From Sanderia malayensis (taxonomy: Eukaryota > Cnidaria > Scyphozoa > Semaeostomeae > Pelagiidae), in contig RQOL01000139.1 in the NCBI GenBank assembly GCA_013076295.1, forward strand, positions 806,001-870,000: a DNA stretch of 64,000 nucleotides. The letters are read 5' to 3'. Below are positions 34,826 through 46,703 of the stretch, one piece after another. The position numbers and the translations under genes were made by a program. A model generated the notes under the pieces. It was not told the DNA's origin, did no database searches, and saw nothing but the letters and a program-made list of their open reading frames with translations. The stretch's first letter is position 1. The number at the start of each line of letters is the position of its first letter.

Positions 34826-37800
34826 TGTCTAAACCGTTGCTACAACCGACCCCGGAATCATCGGAATCAAAAGGAGAGAAGAGAAAAAGTGATGCTATAG
34901 ATCTAGACACTTGCATTCTATGTAAGAAAGCGTGTAACGAAAACAAAAGCGATTTTCCAGTTTCTTCGTGGGATAGGCTGAAGAGCTTTGCACTGCAGTG
35001 AAGAGGGCTTGATAGATATGGAGATGTTTTTGAGACTGTTCGTTGGGAGGAGGGCCCATCAGGCCTGTTCTTTCATAAAATTTGCAAAACAGAGTTTACA
35101 AGCAGACGAAAACTGCAACAGCAATCACTAGGAAAGAAAAAAAAATACAGAACGAGAGAATGAAGCAGCTGCAACTAATAAGGAATGCTCTGAAGGAACT
35201 GAGCCTAAACGTCCCAGCCGGAAGTAGAGGAGCAGCACAGGATACATACATGAAAAACCTATGCATCTGGTGCATGAAGCCAGAAGACAAGAAAAAGCCA
35301 GGACGAGACAGGTGGCACCTTCTTCAAAAGATGAATTCATGGAATACTTTCAAAAGGAACACTATGTACCTTGAAGATGCTACAATGCGAGAGCGCATAC
35401 TGGCTGTAATACGCTGTACACCAGATCCATTTGCTGCAGAGATTCGCTACCATAAATCCTGCTGGAAGAAATACATCAGTCCTGCCTATAGTTGGGAGAG
35501 CAATGATCAAAGATTCCATTTACAAGATGTGCATTTGTCTGAAGTGAAAGAAATATTTTTTCTCATGTACGGAAAGTAGTCATCGAGATGAACGAGCCAC
35601 GAACTTTGAAAGGGCTCCTTCTGGAATATGAGAATATGCTTAGAAATTTTGGTTTTGACACCAATACAACGAAAACAAGTACTACAAAGATTATGCTTCA
35701 GAAAGAGTTCGATGACAAGATAGGATTCCATAATCGGTATCACAAGAACATGAGCACTATTGTGTATGACACTTCTTCGGGAGGATTGTTTATTGAAGCA
35801 GCAATGTACTCATGGGGAGTTGACAATGAACAACTACTCAACACGGTTGCAAGGCGGCTGAAAAACAATTTTGCAGGTGATGCACGCATGAGCTGGCCAA
35901 CTCGCGTTGATGAGCTTGAACAAAAGGAAGAACCCAACCTCATCTTAAGAAAGTTTTTAACATGGCTTAAGGATCCAGCAGCAAAAGACTTTGATGAAAA
36001 TTGTAAAAGTCCAGAGATTGCTTCTTTAGCATCGCTGCTATACTCTTTCATTAGCGGAAACCTCTCTTCTTTCCAAACAAAGTTGTTGATGACAATTCAT
36101 GGACTCACAAGAAGTCGCGAGATAATAGATCTAATGAAAAAATTTTCGCTTGGAATAAGCTATCAAGATGTTCTTGATTTGTATGCTGCATGGGCTAAGT
36201 TTGAATTAAAGACAGACGAGGGTTGCCCAGAAGAGATTGCAAGCAATGTTCCTGGAACTGTTATCCTTGACAATGACGATTTTCAAGACGACACGCTGAC
36301 CGGTGCAGGTACATCTCATCGAACAAATGTAATGTTTGTACAACCTGAAAACACTACCAATGTAATTTGCAATGAAAATCGCCCCAAACTCTCTTTAACG
36401 AAGTCCTTAGATGTCGAGAAAATAATTGCGGAGCAAAATAGGCTTTTGCCATACAAGACATTCAAACGTGGAGTGCCAGAAGTGCGAAAGCACATTGATG
36501 TCACGCCAACAGATACTAAAAAGCAAAGGGCTCGAGGAATAATCCATTCTTTGACACGTCTTGATGAAAATGGTGAGACTGTTTTGCCCGAAAATCAAAG
36601 CACCAATTCATTTTCAGGATTTCAATCCAATATCCAGCTTTTTCCTGTCAAGAGTAAGCCATTCTTTTATCTGACGCTGTCTAAGCCACCTGGAAAGTCT
36701 GTTGTTAACGAGGTCATGAACCGTGTAGTAGCCGTAGCAAAGAAGAAGTCAATGCCTTTTGTCCAGCTTGTTGGCGACCAACCAGTTTATACGCTTATTG
36801 TCCAGCTAAAATATGAAAATGCTGAACAGTTCGATCTCATTGTGCCTTTTTGGGTCCCTTTCATATGCAATGCTCTTTCATGTCAGCAATGAATAAAAGA
36901 TTTAAAGGCTCTGGGTTGAGTGATGTTCTTGTTGCAGCTGGTGCTGTTGCTGAGGGTTCAGTGGACAGAGCACTTGGTGGAAAGCATTACAAGCGAGGTA
37001 TTCGATGTCTCTGTTTAATGTACGAGGCACTAATCCGTCAAATAGTCCAAGAAAGCATCGGTAGTGGTCAGCATCTACAGCCAGAGACCAAAGAAATGCT
37101 TCGGATACTGCAAAAGCCATTAAGTACAACAAGAGAGAATCTAATATCAGCTCATGATACCTTAGAGGCAAGTCAAGAGTTCTCAAACTTTATTTCTAAA
37201 GCATTTGAGCAACTAGAACACTCTGAGAGTCATATGGCTAAATATTGGCTGAGTTTTTTGGAAATGGTCGAAATACTTATGCAAAACATCCATGCTCTGA
37301 GAACCCAAAACTGGGAAGAATTTAAGATTTCTCTGAGATCAATGTTGCCATGGATGCAAATTTATGACAACAACAAGTATGGAAGATGGCTCGTTAAATT
37401 CTGGCTGCAGATGAGTTGTTTACCTGAAGAAAAGGCGCAGTACCTGTACCAGGGATTATTTGCCCAGTCAATGACAGGTAAGCCCTACTCTTGCTTGCCA
37501 CTGGATCTTTGGATCGAAATGACGATGAACAAGGGGTCCAAAATGAAAGCTGGCTGGAAGAGAATTTTGCAAAATGAAAAGATGCTTATGATCCACACAC
37601 GCAACGCCAATTCAGTGAATACAGTTAGAGTTGCACTTCATGCCATGGCAAACTTGAGAAAAGCTACAAAAGGCCATAGAGAAAATTCAACCTTCAGACT
37701 AAAGACTGACGAGCAGGTAGTTCAAGACATCGATAAGTGCTTGACTGAATTCAACTCCAAACCATTCGACCTGTCAAATGACACCCTCAGGACTCTTCAG

Positions 37801-39204
37801 ACGGTAATGATTGCCTCTGACAAGCTTGTTCATGATTTTGAAACGGCTCACAGAGATGGTGAAGTACTTGTTACCAAATTCTTTAAGGAACGAATGTTTT
37901 CTAATGAGAAATCATTTGACGACACAATGCATAGAAACGCAAGGCACACCTTCGACAAGCCACCTTCAACAGAAAAAGAGAAAAGTGCGACCATTCCTAA
38001 GACTGTTGCAATGGAAAACAAAGCTATGGCTCAAATTATAGCCTTAGAACAAAGCAGTGCAGCCAAAATTGACCTTGTGCAGATCATGGGTCATCATGTG
38101 ACAGAAGAGTGCCTCTCAATATTTAATATAAACGCAACTATGATCAAAGTACAGAAATCAAAGTTAGTTGAGAAACTCAAATTTGTGTCATTGAGTCCAA
38201 TGGACAGTTACACGGCAATAGTTGATATGGGGTTTATATGGAGACTGGCTACACCTACAACAGAGGACAGGGAAAAGAACGATGGAACTTACTACACTTG
38301 GAATGATTATGCTGATAGAGTTTTTTCTCTTGTTTTGTCAAGGCACCGAAATGCATCTGAGACCATTTTCGTAAATGACCCGTACGATTTGGAGATGAGC
38401 ATCAAAGACAGCGAGCACGATTGCAGAGCAGGGGCGTATTCTCATGTCGGAGGCACAAGAAATGTTTTTATTCGGATGGAGGATAGGCTGCCGCCTTCAA
38501 AAGAATTTCAAAATCTTCTCTCGCAGCTTTACATCCTAACATCAACCTCATTTACTCCGTAAGAAATAAATGTTGGAAACTGTTGAATACTGAGGAAAAT
38601 CTAGAAATCAAAGAGTTTGAATGCCGCCATGTAGAGGCGGATACAATTTCCGTCTTCCTATATTCTCAAATAAGAAAGCAGGGTGCTGTTGTTCCTGTTG
38701 TAATCGACGCTGAGGACACGGATTTTCTCGTCTTGGCTGCACATGTCGCTCATAAAGTAAATGGTATTTTGGGCTTGAAGAGAAAGAAAGAAATATACGA
38801 TTGCAAGCAACTTTGTACAGCAGAAGTATCTAAAATTATTGTACCTCTTCATATACATACAGGAGCTGATGCCGTATCGGGTTTCTTTGGGCATGGAAAG
38901 AAATCTGTCGTGGAAAAAACAGTGAAATCTTCAGATGCAATGCAACTGTTGAAAGATGTCCGGAAGAGCGTGCCTGCAACACCAGAGGTAATGGAACATT
39001 TGGCGAATTTTACAATCAGGCATGTGTACGGTGACAGGAAAAGCACGACATTGGTTGAAGCGCGAGCATTGAAGTGGGAGAAAATGAAAAATAAGTCTAC
39101 ACGCGGTATACCTCCAGACGAAGACTCCCACGACTTGAAAGCAAAGCGAATTAACTACCAAGCAAATATTCTGATAAACTTTGACAAGCCTGATCATCCT
39201 CCTT
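34826..39204 (+). pseudogene. Element C Academ-like gene, main part (FEN1/PIN-type nuclease family)
   Basis: Starts MSKPLLQPTPESSESKGEKR with a cysteine cluster (CILCKKACNEN...HKICK), then CIWCMKPEDKKK...RYHKSCWKKYI. After these come MNEPRTLKGLLLEYENM, LTRSREIIDLMKKFSLGISY, the box TLTGAGTSHRTNVMFVQPE, and a long helical region. The C-terminal part holds FECRHVEADT, VVIDAEDTDFLVLAAHV and HIHTGADAVSGFFGHGKKS. These acidic clusters resemble metal-binding residues of FEN1/XPG-type PIN nucleases; the family norm T-G-C-D is T-G-A-D here. Broken by a TGA near 35000 and single-base frameshifts near 35150, 35578, 36855 and 38560. Interrupted at 39204 by element D. Confidence 0.7.
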
Positions 39205-39435
39205 TATGGAGCGGCAGGGGGGTCAAAAATAATTGGTGATCGTGTTATCCCACCGTTGCGATACGACCCCGGTTTGTAAAACCGGCATCGTGATTCGTAC
39301 GACCCCCATTTTCAAAACCGGCATTGAGATTACGACGCCCATTTACAAAATCCAACCGAGAAACCTCGTTTTCAATTACGACGACCATTTGCAAAATCGA
39401 ACCGAGAAACCTCGTTTTCAATTACGACGCCCATT
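39205..39435. repeat. Left inverted arm of element D, two 46-bp tandem units
   Basis: Begins TATGGAGCGGC. From 39330 it has two copies of the 46-bp unit (TTACGACGnCCATTTnCAAA, then ATCnAACCGAGAAACCTCGTTTTCAA), then a partial third. Each unit contains the hairpin word CGAGAAACCTCG. Confidence 0.9.
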
Positions 39436-39541
39436 TTTCTCCAATGTTACTTCCTTAGTTACTTCTTCTCATCACGGAAGGGAATGACTATTTTCTGTTC
39501 TGATCTTTTCTTCAGTCTTCTCATAGCTTTCTAATATCAAC

Positions 39542-42500
39542 ATGGCAAATAAGGATCAGCAGGAAATCAAAAAGGCTCTTGTAGAGCTGAAAAGGGCACT
39601 AAGTAATACCGAGAAGCAACTGAACTTAGAATCACCGTCAAATTCAACATCATCGAGTCCGAAAATCGATGCTGATTCTTCCCCATTTGATCGTGTTTCA
39701 GCAAATTTCAGGCGAGTATCTGTCTTTTCATCGTTTTTCAGGTCTGGTCAGGTAGGCAGTTAGCAATTTAGCATAAATGTAGCCTAAAGTTAGCATACCT
39801 GTAGCCTATATCATACTTAGCGTGACAAGCACTCAGCCTTAAACCCAAGCTACATTTCCTATACATACATTTCCATTCATTCAGAATCAAGTGCTCTATC
39901 CTATATTACCATTATATAATTAACCCAAAAATGCTTTTTATTCTAAAAATTTTACAAACAAATTTCCATCATCAAATATAAGACACAAGGGCACAAAAGT
40001 CTGTAAGTTGACCACCTTAATACTTCTTCTTTACATCCATTATAGATAACATCAGTTGTTGAAAAATTGAAACAAACTGTGTGCAAATCTTTAAAGTAGT
40101 TTGCTTGATTTCTTTACTATCAGAAGAATCTTGCAATTTGAGGCTCTGAGATTTGCCTCTGCAACTTTCTAAAAGTGTTGCATTTTAAATTATTCCCCCT
40201 TTCTAGGGTGCTGTGGTATTAGATGGACCTACTGTTAATTGTCTAACATGTAAACAGGATGTTGAAATATCAAATTTTAAGAAACATCATTGTGCTTCAA
40301 CAAGGTTAGCATTTGTTCTGTTAGGTCATTTTTGAACATGCTTGTGCCCATCAATATTTTTATTTTTTATTTTCATGTTTTACTTTTTTATTATAAGAAT
40401 TTGAAGTTATGCCTATGCCTGCTATAGAAAGTAAAACTTCTGTAATCTCCCATTAAATTTCCAGCAAACAAGAAAATGAAGTCATTGAGATAGAGGAAAT
40501 CGCAGAAAATGAACAGGTAGCTTTGCAAAACTTATGCTAACATAGGCTAACTGCTTTGAGTTAACTTTGAATACTAACGCAACAAACACTTTTTGTCTTT
40601 CAAGGGTGGGAATAAAGGTGATGATTTGGATGATATTGATGTAGATGATTTCTTCGCGGATACCTTCGGAAATGGGGTAGAAACCATGGCTCAAACTGAA
40701 TTTACTCGAAATAAATTGATCGAGGAGCAAGACAAAGAATATGCTCAAAGCCTTGCTGCAGACAGAGAAAAGGTAATATAAGCAGTGGCGTATCATGACT
40801 TCAGGGAGCGGGTATTCTGTGACACAAGACGAGTGTAGCGAGCAATAAAGGGGACATTTGGGGTTTACCCCCACAAATTTTTTTGAGACCACGCCCTTTG
40901 GAACATCTTAAAACGCCCTCTTTGCAATTAGTTATTGTCAATAGAAAAATTTAATTTTTGAACAAATGTCATAACTTTTCTTTTCGATGCTATTCGTTTA
41001 ACTTAGATGTGGAAGAGAGGAGAAGAGACAAATAGAATTTTAGTTAGGCCTAACTAACAGCCTAATCGATTAACACTATCACAACCAACAACTGTGTACA
41101 ATGCCTTTTTGAAGGGCTTTGCTGTTTGCAGACTGCCACTGCAGTATACTTCATTTAAATACAATAAAACTTAGCAAAAGTACTTTGATCTTCCAGGAAA
41201 ACAAAAAGCAGGTAGAAGAGCAGTCAAAGGAAGAAGTGGTCAAGGTAAATAATTGCATTTTGAAGCATGTACTTTCTCTCCACCTTGACCTATGCCTGTT
41301 TGACTACCACTTTCTTGTTACGCTGATTTCTACCAAAATTATTTGCTTTTTCAGTTTAGAGAAAAATGTAAAATTGAATTAACAGAAGAACGAGATGCTG
41401 GAAATGATGTAATTCCATTGAAGTTCCGAATGCCCAATGGACAAATGCTTAATCGTCGGTTTAAGAAAACAGGTGATGTTGAGGTGCGTATTAACATAAT
41501 TACAACATTATAACATTACAACATTATAATTATTGACTAATGTCATCATTGTCTAGTGTGATGGTTGATGAGAAAAAGGGCATGGTCAGTGGCTTACCAT
41601 GTGGCCATCTACATGGTAAACACCCATTTATAAGTAACAATACTTATAAATATATCATAAATACTATTAATACTTATAAATACTTATAAATACTTATATA
41701 TATATATATATATATATATAAATATATATAAATATAAATCTTGTAAATACTTATAAATAATTATCCCTCACTAATTTTCTCCTTTAATATTGGAAGTGCA
41801 GTGTATTTGTACCTACACTGGAGGAAAAAATTATCATGCAGTGATCTTTTTAAAATAAAAAACACCTAACCAGACAAGAGTACATTGACATGTGTACCAC
41901 TTCTGTCATTTTTCCCAGATTCAGCTAGTTGACAGTCTTGCTACAATTCATTTTAGTCTATATAAACTTGGCGCAATATTCCAGTGTTCATTTAAGTGAT
42001 TTGTCATAGGTGGTGGTGAATTTTGTCGGTAGCCAGGAATCATCAACTCTGTCTTTCCACATGCAAAGCCCGTCTTTGTGTTCCCCTAACTCAATTTCAA
42101 AGAGACAATCATTGTCAGAATTGGGCATTAATAAACCTTGTACATTCAATGTGTATTGGGATGGAAATGAACCACCTGTAAGTATCAGCTTCAATTTTTC
42201 TAAACTATTATAGGTGTTAAAACATCCCTTGTTCATTGGACCAGTCTCTGATATTGAGAACATCCTGTAATTGACAAATAAACAAACAAACATGTTTTCA
42301 TAAAATAACAATGAAACATGTTTTCATTATCCAAGTCTCCTTGGTCTGAATATGTGAATATGGAATTGGAAAGTTTTCTTATTTCATTGACATCATTTTA
42401 ATCCTAGCTTGAACAACAAGGCATCAACGTTCCAAACATGTCAAATGCAACTGATTTCAATTATGCACAGCCGAATAATGAAGAAACAACAGCAGTATAA

Positions 42501-43668
42501 AATGGAACTGGGTGTGTACTGCAAATTGATAATGCATTGCTTACAATATGTTAAAGAAGCCCAGCCATTCTCACCACATGGCACGGGTATAGCACTTTTA
42601 AATGAATAATGGCTAAAATAAATGGACCTGTAGATAAGGTATTGACCATGTTGATTCTGTTTCAGATCTGATGACGTGGTGAAAGCTAAGATACGTAGAA
42701 CTTTCATCATTAAGGACATGATTTCCACCTTTAGCGATTCCAAAATTCTTGGGAGAAGGATTGAAATCGTCCCAGTGAATGAAAGAGGTCAGCTGGAAAA
42801 CGCCGATGATCTAGGTGGTGTTTATCGCGATATCCTTTCTGCTTTTTGGGCAGAGATAATGAAGGCTAGTTTCACTGGAGAAACAGAGATGGTTCCTGTT
42901 GCAAGGCACGACTATCATGAGGATGACTGGAAAGCTGTTTGCCGAATTCTTTTGAAAGGCCTTAAAGACATCAACTACTTTCCTCTTAAAGTGAGCAGGG
43001 CATTTGTTGGTGCTGCATTTTTTTGAAATCAGGTAATAAGTGCAGAGGCTTTGATGGAAAGTTATTTCAATTTCCTTCCCTTGGCGGACATGGAGGTGTT
43101 AAGGAATGCCTTAAAGGAAAATGAAATTGAAGAAGATGTTTATGATACTCTTTCCTCCCTGGAATCTTACAGAGTCCCGCGCACTACCACGGAATTGAAA
43201 GAGCTTGTGACAGAGCTAGCAAGAAGAGATTTGCTAATGAAAACAAGCTACATAAAGGAAGCCTGGGAAGATGTCCTATCAGGCCAGATGACTGTAAAAA
43301 ATCTGTCCACATTGAACGGCATTTACGAACGCGGTAAGGCTACAGGAAAGAAAATTTTGAAACTTCTTTGTGCAGAGCCGAAAAATGATCGGGAGAGCGA
43401 AACTCTTAAATACTTAAAAGAGTTCATCAGAACACTGAAGAAGGAGGACATTCCTATTTTTATGCGATATACAACTGGGTCAGATATGCTGTGTGTAGAG
43501 AAAATAGATGTTGTTTTCACGAAAATAACTGGCATGCAAAGAAGGATTGTTGCACACACATGTGGACCAGTGCTTGATGTGCCTGTCACTTATGACTCGT
43601 ATCCTGAATTCAAAGAGGAGTTCTTAACCCTTTTGAAATGCGGTTATTGGAGTATGGACTTTGCATGA
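39542..43668 (+). pseudogene. Transposon-borne UBX-like/HECT E3 ubiquitin ligase, nine exons, two in-frame stops
   Basis: Exons by splice signals: 39542-39751, 40207-40304, 40465-40516, 40605-40772, 41197-41244, 41355-41483, 42010-42177, 42408-42511 and 42666-43668. All phases agree, giving about 659 residues. Exon 2 has a CLTCKQDV...HHC zinc-finger-like motif, exon 3 an acidic EVIEIEEI (possible SUMO-binding motif), exon 4 EEQDKEYAQSLAADREK as in FAF/UBX proteins, exons 6-7 a UBX-like IPLKFRMPNGQMLNRRFK. The last exon is a HECT domain whose active-site Cys lies in VAHTCGPVLDVPVTY. HECT enzymes pass ubiquitin through this Cys to substrates. A TAA (42497-42499) and a TGA (43024-43026, where the frame expects another residue in AAFF|NQVIS) make this copy defective. 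Related G2E3-like genes are often seen near integrase-core genes in fish and invertebrates. Confidence 0.8.
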
Positions 43669-43945
43669 GATCTCCATATACATCATGCTCAAGTTTAAGG
43701 TTTTTTTCTCACGGATTGTTTGTTGTCTTACCATAACGTTATGTTTTGTTGTCTTATCATCATCCTTATGTTGTTTGGTAAATACTCATAATATTTTCTA
43801 CATTTAATATTATTCGTATGCAATCCAAATAAGTTTTGTTGACAATGTTTGAATAAAACATCACCCATTGTGCTTATGCCGTTTGCCTAGGTTATTGATT
43901 TTGCGCTATCGATATGTTTCATTGTTATGTTTTTGAATCACCATT

Positions 43946-46354
43946 TCATGTTATGTTGTTTAGCATGTTTCTCGTCGCTTGCATGGCTTTTTCGTAAACA
44001 TCAATACCAAAGCAGTTGCTCTCTGCATTTCGAGCAATCTGTGTTGATAATTCATCAATCTGTTCATTTGTGAGTGGATCTGAGGATACAGCTATATCCA
44101 CATCTGCTTCAATTTCTTCCTCACATACAGGCCCATCCCAGTCAATGCCATACTGTGTTGCATCGTCCTAACAAAGCAAACGTTCATTTAGTGAAATTCC
44201 CTTTCGAAACTTTATCAAAGTTACACAGGAATGAAACAAAAAGGAACGTGTGTTAGAAACAAGCCCTAGCAGTGTTTTGCTGAGGTAGCATTGCATTAAA
44301 TGTGAAGGAGGAATTATTTTTTCTTGGTGAACAAAAATTGTCGTTGACCTAAAAAAGTATCAGTGAGTTACTTGTTTATTTTATTGTCACTTGTTGTTTA
44401 GTTGCTAGTTTATTTTCTTACTGTTGAATGCTGTATGAATAAGATAAACAATCTTGCCTGACACGAGGGCTCCCAAATTTGATCAGAAATATCAGAATTA
44501 TTTCCAAACGCTTTGTGTTGCCCTTCTATCCAAAGCTGATTGGGGGTAACACTCTTCTCAGTTCTGAGTTTATGGCAATTCCAAGCTGTTGTAAATTCGG
44601 CTAGATGTCTGTTTATCCTTTCTTTGTAGACCCATTGTAGCACAAACATTTCCACTTCATCTTTTACATTTAGCATTTCTGATACTTCCATGTATACAAA
44701 TAGGCAATAGTAGATGTAGATAACCCCCAAGTACACATCCACCCACAAACGTTCTATCCATTGGTTGTGAACACTTTTTCCAGTGATAAAGCTACCTCTG
44801 TCTGGACCTCTGTCTGGGTGGGTAAACATGTACCAGGCAACATCAACATTCTCTACTCCCATATCACCGCGTACCCTAGATGGGAGTCCATATTTCTCAA
44901 CTGCAGTCAAAAATTCTCTGAGTACAGTTTCTGCTTTGTTGTTTGTGTTACACGAGAGGAACATTATTTTCCGGCTATATCCGTCAATGCAACCATGGAT
45001 TACAAATCCCCATCTATAAAACAAAATATAACCAAACATTGTGATGTTGAAAATTTCAAAAAGAAAATATGTAAGCCTTTAGGCAAACGGCATTGAAATA
45101 AAGGGTCAAAAAGTTCAATCACTTGAGATCGACAATATTGTCTTAAGAATTTATAAACAAATACACGCTTTTTTTATAAGAAACTTGGCTCAGCACATAG
45201 TACTAAAATTTTCTTAAATTTGCTATTGTTCTAATAAACAATAGAACACAAGAATCTATTGTACTTTCGAAAAAATCCTAGTTCTTAGTTCCTTACAAAG
45301 TGGTTCCTTATAAAAAAGTGTGTAACTAGTAAAAGACGAGCAAAAATTCAAGTACCTTGAAGTAAGAATATTTAAGAAAATTTAATAACGTTTCGGGCCT
45401 TTATCGAAGTGACGTTTACACTCAGTTACAGTACAAAAGTGGTATACATAGATAGGTATATAAAAATGAAAACGAGACTTAAAGAAAAGAGGTGAATAAA
45501 TACAGTAATAATAAAGCTAGTCTAGACTAGCTAGAAAAACTCTGCACAGAATGATTTATTACTCGATAGGCATTGGCCCAGACAAACACGACTTAAATCT
45601 GTAATAAATAATAAGGTTTTCATACAGAGGGTGTCACTTTACAAATGTTACATCTAATGTACCTTATAAGCTTATGGTGTCCATCTAAATGCCATAACGT
45701 CAATATTCCAGGCACTTTGTATTGCCTCCTTGCAGTGGTCGTGATTTGCAGTGCTCTTGTTAATACGCCTTCTGGATCTACTCTTCGCATCGACTGCCTT
45801 ATCCTTCGTTCTAAAACTTTTATGTCTTCAGCAATCAGCAAGCTTTGCATCCTTCTATATCCAGCATTTGGGTTCTTTTTGATCAACCCTTTAATCTTGC
45901 TCTCTAGCTCCTCGTCATTAATTTGTGAATACGTTTGACCAATCGACAGATTAAAATGTCTTAGTCTACGTTTGACAGTACTGACACTAGTGGATATCAT
46001 TTTGGCTATCATAGGAACACTAAAATTGTTTTCGAGATAGAATTCAAGCTGCATTTCGGTGATATTGTATTTTGGTCTTCCCTTGGAACTATTCATTAAT
46101 CTTGGAGCTTTATAACCAAATTCGCATGGTGAAGTTGATGATTTTTGGCATAGTGTGGAAGTTAATTTTGCTAACGATTGTATTTCCGTATCTACACCAT
46201 ACAATGCATTGCATCTCGAAATCAGAGTGTTCAAGTTGTCGATTCGGTACTGCATGTAATCCCATTCAACTGACGAAATGCCTGATAAAATGCCTGAAGC
46301 GATATTTCTGCTGGTAACATTATGAAATCGCATGAAATTATTAACATTCATCAC
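43946..46354 (-). CDS. IS3EU-like transposase (rve DDE integrase fold), three exons
   Basis: Exon 1 46354-45663, exon 2 45013-44458, exon 3 44167-43946, giving 489 residues with consistent phases. Exon 1 has helix-turn-helix regions ([36 protein letters not shown]) and ends at the first catalytic Asp in [11 protein letters not shown]. Exon 2 has [16 protein letters not shown], the second Asp in [12 protein letters not shown] and Glu in [15 protein letters not shown], then [15 protein letters not shown]. Exon 3 has [18 protein letters not shown]. Intron 2 uses a GC donor (CAG|GCAAGA). I see no stop or frameshift, so this may be an intact transposase. The start lies about 30 bases inside the right arm. 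It would cut and integrate the element by DDE chemistry. Confidence 0.85.
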
Positions 46355-46385
46355 TACATATACTCATATACGCTTTTTGTAATCT

Positions 46386-46697
46386 TAATTGAAAACGAGG
46401 TTTCTCGGTTCGATTTTGCAAATGGTCGTCGTAATTGAAAACGAGGTTTCTCGGTTCGATTTTGCAAATGGGCGTCGTAATTGAAAACGAGGTTTCTCGG
46501 TTCGATTTTGTAAATGGGCGTCGTAATTGAAAACGAGGTTTCTCGGTTCGATTTTGCAAATGGTCGTCGTAATCTCAATGCCGGTTTTGAAAATGGGGGT
46601 CGGACGAATCACGATGCCGGTTTTACAAACCGGGGTCGTATCGCAACGGTGGGATAACACAATCACCAATTATTTTTGACCCCCCTGCCGCTCCATA
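46386..46697. repeat. Right inverted arm of element D, four 46-bp tandem units
   Basis: Inverted copy of 39205-39435, but with four 46-bp units (46389-46572) instead of two. It ends GCCGCTCCATA, next to CTCCTT. Confidence 0.9.
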
Positions 46698-46703
46698 CTC
46701 CTT

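Follow-up and report, generated by a model that had tools for sequence, protein, structure and literature searches.

Positions 39205-46697 of the window (the whole 64,000-nucleotide stretch of Sanderia malayensis DNA analyzed here, contig C45:806001-870000), flanked by CTCCTT, hold what is in all likelihood a complete IS3EU-type transposon with two tail-to-tail genes, one encoding an IS3-like DDE transposase (rva_4) and the other a HECT ligase with ubiquitin-system modules. The module ahead of the HECT domain is predicted to be UBX in this element, and zinc-finger or CUE-like modules, matched below cut-off, are candidates for that place in other families. Anatomy, association, and conservation show that such elements in the S. 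malayensis genome regularly include the ligase, which is under selection as part of them and is not a chance passenger. The features of the window element are listed below; L010 is a second element of the same family, located elsewhere in the genome.

39199..39204: left target site duplication, CTCCTT (sequence; empty sites)
39205..39436, plus strand: left terminal inverted repeat, which begins TATGGAGCGGC and contains 36- and 46-nt subrepeats
39542..39751, plus strand: HECT gene exon 1 (splice model; identical sites in L010; gene model P0002)
39980..39981: point at which a 1,249-bp piece retained by L010, with most of an N-terminal exon, is absent
40207..40304, plus strand: HECT gene exon 2, with a Cys/His zinc-finger-like motif by eye (splice model)
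40465..40516, plus strand: HECT gene exon 3 (splice model)
40605..40772, plus strand: HECT gene exon 4 (splice model)
41197..41244, plus strand: HECT gene exon 5 (splice model)
41355..41483, plus strand: HECT gene exon 6, start of the UBX domain (splice model; domain search)
42010..42177, plus strand: HECT gene exon 7, remainder of the UBX domain (splice model; domain search)
42408..42511, plus strand: HECT gene exon 8 (splice model)
42498..42500, plus strand: in-frame TAA in exon 8 of the window copy; no stop at that place in L010
42666..43668, plus strand: HECT gene exon 9, HECT domain and final stop
43024..43026, plus strand: in-frame TGA in exon 9 of the window copy; no stop at that place in L010
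43561..43563, plus strand: catalytic cysteine codon, HTC motif (read from the sequence; invariant in the HECT alignment)
43946..44167, minus strand: transposase exon 3
44458..45013, minus strand: transposase exon 2 (GC donor if the exon ends here)
45663..46351, minus strand: transposase exon 1
46466..46697, minus strand: right terminal inverted repeat, 97% complementary to the left one
46698..46703: right target site duplication, CTCCTT (sequence; empty sites)

The window element is a mobile DNA element with confirmed ends, inverted repeats, a target site duplication, and an empty site. The CTCCTT duplications and perfect ends described in an earlier note on this DNA are both exact, with exact TATGGAGCGGC termini at 39205 and 46697. 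Each terminal inverted repeat measures 232 nt; the two are 97% complementary and contain tandem 36- and 46-nt subrepeats (39262-39436 and 46386-46573) whose copy number is unequal between the sides, the 46-nt subrepeat being present in 2.3 versus 4.1 copies. When the flanks were joined, the resulting 180 nt, which contain one open frame through the junction, were matched without interruption at six other places in the genome with 92-97% identity (five matches span positions 1-180 and one spans 8-180). The C45 copy gives two half matches only, which meet at the duplication. These six uninterrupted target paralogues exclude chance for the window element, and together with the split C45 match indicate that the element transposed into a multi-copy sequence. 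The target (window positions 36826-39204 and 46704 onward) is itself a multi-copy coding sequence whose upstream frame weakly resembles DUF6589 (E 1.7e-4, below the cut-off). Since its copies at C566 and C6 are inverted neighbors about 1.1 kb apart, the target may belong to another mobile element.

IS3EU is a Repbase superfamily described as having long inverted repeats with TA..TA ends (TAYGG..CCRTA), a target duplication that is usually 6 bp, and an rve-like DDE transposase; fungal families also have a second, oppositely oriented gene (PMC10045372 and PMC12730594, each available in part). TAYGG..CCRTA termini, a 6-bp duplication, and an IS3/IS481-like rve DDE transposase are all present here, and on published features (TATGG..CCATA ends, 6-bp duplications, rva_4 transposase) the window element is classed as IS3EU-type. 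The earlier note had proposed this type, and the ends and duplication agree with the features given in the accessible portions of those papers (PMC10045372, PMC12730594). The same termini bound the related elements L009, L010, L015, and L038-L041. To our knowledge, no HECT gene occurs in GingerRoot, a group that was compared by description only. GingerRoot resembles the element in its integrase-like transposase, 6-bp duplication, and mostly TA..TA ends (PMC10045372, in part).

The transposase gene has three exons on the minus strand, as the earlier note proposed, and its frame is open in the window copy. Its product matches the Pfam domain PF24764 (rva_4) with an E value of 1.6e-77; the rve match (E 9.8e-5) lies below its cut-off. 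D223, D280, and E317 are invariant across 18 aligned transposase rows and presumably constitute the catalytic triad. In gene model P0010, exon 2 continues for about 14 more residues and then joins exon 3, and both versions keep the frame. The closest named relatives of the transposase are cnidarian.

The ligase gene (39542-43668, plus strand, nine exons) is convergent with the transposase gene and is broken in the window copy. The earlier note took it for an intact gene with a consistent nine-exon frame, a claim that does not survive the in-frame TAA at 42498-42500, the in-frame TGA at 43024-43026, and the missing 1,249 bp. The missing piece corresponds to L010 element positions 777-2025, and the exon found there (1856-2047) is used in gene model P0009. 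P0002 (window copy) and P0009 (L010) are EukProt gene models, near-identical and therefore taken to come from S. malayensis. That the 1,249-bp difference is an insertion in L010 was rejected, as the conserved "..YIRPIQ" stretch, mostly encoded by that piece, is kept in L009 and in the distant protein P0131. A 42-nt intron (42991-43032) that would bypass the second stop was likewise rejected: L010 and L009 are coding across that stretch, and 43024-43026 is thus a true stop. The reading that the HECT gene of the window is an intact and functional nine-exon gene, or is rescued by alternative splicing, draws on P0002, which links exon 8 to a later acceptor and avoids the first stop. P0002 nevertheless terminates at the second stop, without the C-lobe and the catalytic cysteine, which refutes this highly improbable reading for a full HECT. 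The L010 ligase has lesions of its own, namely a 4-nt deletion that breaks the frame and after which P0009 terminates, and a stop in exon 6 that P0009 splices around. Since the lesions differ between the two copies, their ancestor was probably intact, and the breakage in the window copy is most simply decay after insertion.

The UBX domain of the window ligase scores above the Pfam cut-off (E 1.3e-6, 29 bits versus 21), which bears out the convergent multi-exon gene with a UBX-like region and HECT active-site motif noticed earlier. Against solved structures the UBX region gives a weak match to FAF1 (E 0.013), and inspection of the window UBX by eye found no clear FPR-type p97/Cdc48-binding loop. 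The Pfam HECT match of the window protein alone is C-terminal and below cut-off (E 0.012), and the loci L037-L041 score above it. A profile built from nine element HECT proteins matches E6AP (PDB) with an E value of 1.3e-17 over profile positions 4-316, through the catalytic cysteine, which is invariant in all nine aligned proteins, down to 14% identity to the window protein. The ligases of different families diverge strongly in their N-terminal parts, and C2HC and CUE matches in families other than that of the window are below cut-off. Structure prediction gave a usable model for one of the two HECT types defined by the tree below. P0130, the type-B gene model of L040, was modeled by AlphaFold with a mean pLDDT of 70; starting at residue 201, values of at least 72 are reached in 30 of the 39 blocks of ten residues, with dips to 42. 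Foldseek matched this model to HECT structures with E values down to 7.2e-11 (AREL1) and a probability of 1.0, the TM-scores by query length being 0.25-0.43 among the 50 matches listed. Prediction of the type-A fold was poor (pLDDT 50) and the model unusable. Sequence and modeled fold show the element ligases to be HECT proteins, with predicted activity. They have the HECT fold and catalytic cysteine in common with the cellular ligases E6AP, HUWE1, AREL1, and NEDD4, but the similarity is distant, the N-terminal modules are different, and the element HECTs form two deep clades in a tree without cellular HECT. A search of 5.8 billion proteins with HECT queries returned 9 and 10 matches, none bearing a functional name. 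P0003, P0004, P0006, and P0008 are HECT proteins with a common but different N-terminal region and are perhaps ligases of related elements elsewhere.

The earlier note suggested a search for further copies by the inverted repeats. In the 184-Mb genome this search, which gives a lower bound, found at least three elements of the window family: the window element, L010, and L015. The two long ones carry both genes. L010 is 8,548 bp long and encloses both genes at a different site with its own duplication (GAATTC), differing from the window element by 102 mismatches in 7,270 aligned columns; L015 (1,088 bp, duplication GTCTGC) is an internal deletion without either gene. L009 represents a related family (7,747 bp, duplication GAAGTT) and also carries both genes, its HECT and transposase being 63% and 78% identical to those of the window in the stretches searched. 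Nine elements have facing 11-bp ends, and the 6-bp duplication is exact in seven and has one mismatch in two. The short elements L011-L014 and L016 (0.8-2.6 kb) have little in common beyond their 11-bp ends and a 6-bp duplication, which has one mismatch in two of them, and are likely non-autonomous derivatives of related families. Five further loci (L037-L041) were chosen for open HECT frames of 472-782 aa. In four of them (L038-L041), TATGG ends and 6-bp duplications (three exact, one with one mismatch) enclose both genes in 4.7-5.3 kb; no TATGG ends were found in L037. The same end search on the reversed sequence of seven loci gave no matches. Each gene of L038 and of L040 consists of one long open frame.

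The association between HECT and transposase genes is general in the S. malayensis genome. HECT matches fall into at least 233 clusters and transposase matches into at least 158, in lists that are incomplete (scoring covered 150 of 378 candidates in the one case and 150 of 572 in the other, and hit rows overlapping already entered ones were left out of the cluster tables). A HECT match lies within 3 kb of 93 of the 158 transposase clusters, tail-to-tail in 92 of the 93 with a median gap of 791 nt; proximity alone was measured for most of these pairs, the ends having been located for a minority. Random placement of the transposases within the observed extents of the contigs gave a mean of 11.9 pairs (standard deviation 2.9, maximum 23 in 2000 trials); this shuffle was preferred over a uniform-density expectation of 1.5 pairs, which is too low. 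An earlier count with fewer HECT queries placed 58 of 123 HECT clusters at most 2 kb from a transposase, 57 of them convergent. At each of the ten highest-ranking transposase loci, L027-L036 (the window, L010, and L009 among them), the element profile finds a HECT match on the opposite strand with an E value of at most 8.6e-7; the match is weak in L033 (44 bits) and in L032, L034, L035, and L036 (25-44 bits at best). No listed transposase lies within 3 kb of 140 of the 233 HECT clusters, and 65 of the 158 transposase clusters are without a HECT match within 3 kb. Four of these 65 were sampled: L058 and L059 contain diverged HECT pieces and L057 is masked by N. L060 (C619:156300-161300) has a transposase, no HECT was found in about 3.3 kb downstream, and a ligase-free family is possible there. 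Searches of viral contigs gave 53 pattern matches, none of which was confirmed. The idea that the ligase is true cargo of the element is sustained by the enclosed genes of L010 and L009, by four further families with ends, and by the tail-to-tail association; such HECT genes lie dispersed alongside transposases and do not sit at fixed host loci. The refuting conditions set in the earlier note were thus checked with results that favor cargo.

Trees were built from 22 paired loci chosen from those in hand, all 22 of which passed the length filter; near-copies (such as L010, L021, L023, L025, L052, and L054) and the weak-HECT loci L032-L036 were omitted. The HECT tree separates two deep clades, A (nine elements, including the window) and B (13 elements), with support of 100/100. 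The transposase data reject the carriers of type A as one clade (AU p 1.5e-16, or 2.2e-8 without the long-branched L022). The two trees have 6 of 19 splits in common, and the transposase and HECT distances are correlated (Mantel r 0.28, with 4 of 5000 permutations as high). This partial agreement and the rejection of clade A therefore indicate that the ligase often travels with the transposase and that exchange, or repeated acquisition, has also occurred. The transposase of L022 (C781:1044906-1046924) is on a very long branch and its HECT is an ordinary type A. The transposases of L041 and L042 (type A HECT) and of L039 (type B HECT) group together with support of 88/86.

Constraint on the HECT gene, which the earlier note proposed to measure by dN/dS, is visible between families as restraint and is not found between the two sister copies. 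In 7 of 13 comparisons, which are between families, dS is saturated and dN is 0.30-0.67. Of the remaining six, two have more than 10 changes, with dN/dS values of 0.37 and 0.58, and the others have at most 7 changes. Over the compared parts, the window and L010 HECT genes differ by 20 nonsynonymous and 4 synonymous changes, a proportion near that of the sites themselves, and thus there has been no constraint since these copies parted.

The ligase is presumably active and would work in trans for the element. As a tentative but credible reading, it may act with the transposase in the nucleus, where it would ubiquitinate the transposase or the strand-transfer complex; the marked complex would then be dismantled, or the dose of transposase limited. 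UBX may point to the p97/Cdc48 unfoldase, in parallel to Mu, which uses ClpX to remove its transposase. Neither near-full copy of the window family (the window element or L010) has an unbroken ligase gene, and hence the ligase may not be needed in cis for every jump. The same two-gene element could instead direct its ligase against the host, marking silencing, DNA-repair, or cell-cycle factors for destruction, a possibility of some weight though on balance doubtful. The TET/JBP dioxygenases of fungal IS3EU, which undo methylation, are a precedent; they are interpreted as an escape from silencing in the part of PMC12730594 that is available. The strongly differing N-terminal parts would be expected if targets differ, and a general counter-defense could have moved between transposase lineages as these HECT genes have. 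Such targets are putative, however, and the adaptors seen here are UBX, C2HC, and CUE-like, which are known as binders of the ubiquitin machinery and not of silencing factors.

Two further explanations dispense with a function for the element. If the ligase were a captured host gene, carried by chance and spread by hitch-hiking, a broken and unconstrained gene in the two near-full copies would be unsurprising; two deep HECT clades over 22 elements, restrained dN between families, the invariant cysteine, and the tail-to-tail layout in 92 of 93 pairs already disfavor this, and it is very unlikely. That transposases insert preferentially beside resident HECT genes, making the two neighbors and not one element, would fit the pairs known by proximity alone. 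It is refuted for the window, L009, L010, and L038-L041, where one inverted-repeat pair and one duplication surround both genes, and a nearly identical unit with both genes is present at another site, leaving it a negligible probability. Nuclear cooperation of ligase and transposase can be extended to a broader proposal, clearly speculative and unlikely as a whole: animal IS3EU would have evolved a ubiquitin arm of their own, in which an exchangeable HECT fitted with UBX, zinc-finger, or CUE-like adaptors sends the transposase-DNA complex to p97/Cdc48, a eukaryotic counterpart of ClpX acting on Mu transposase, and spread of the elements would be the source of many orphan animal HECT genes.

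The literature search found no paper on a HECT-bearing transposon or on HECT in IS3EU, and prior annotation in Repbase or Dfam is possible; HECT is not mentioned in PMC12314368. Unclassified repeats matching G2E3 have been described in one fish (PMC5638112, in part), which agrees with the earlier note's suggestion that G2E3-like HECT genes may multiply together with integrase-core genes in animals. DNA transposon lineages such as Kolobok and other superfamilies have likewise acquired different accessory proteins, but these are nucleases, a helicase, or KolX and not ubiquitin ligases, according to the available part of PMC9587614. In fungal IS3EU families that carry TET/JBP, the gene opposite to the transposase encodes an alpha-kinase in addition to TET/JBP (PMC12730594, in part), whereas here it encodes a HECT ubiquitin ligase. 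By analogy, these cases suggest that IS3EU may keep a second slot for modifying enzymes. The finding ties a protein-modifying enzyme to a whole transposon group in an animal-like genome. It gives the swarms of unexplained HECT genes, which annotation may attribute to the host, a concrete origin, and makes it testable whether a eukaryotic transposon uses ubiquitin on its own transposition complex or on its host.
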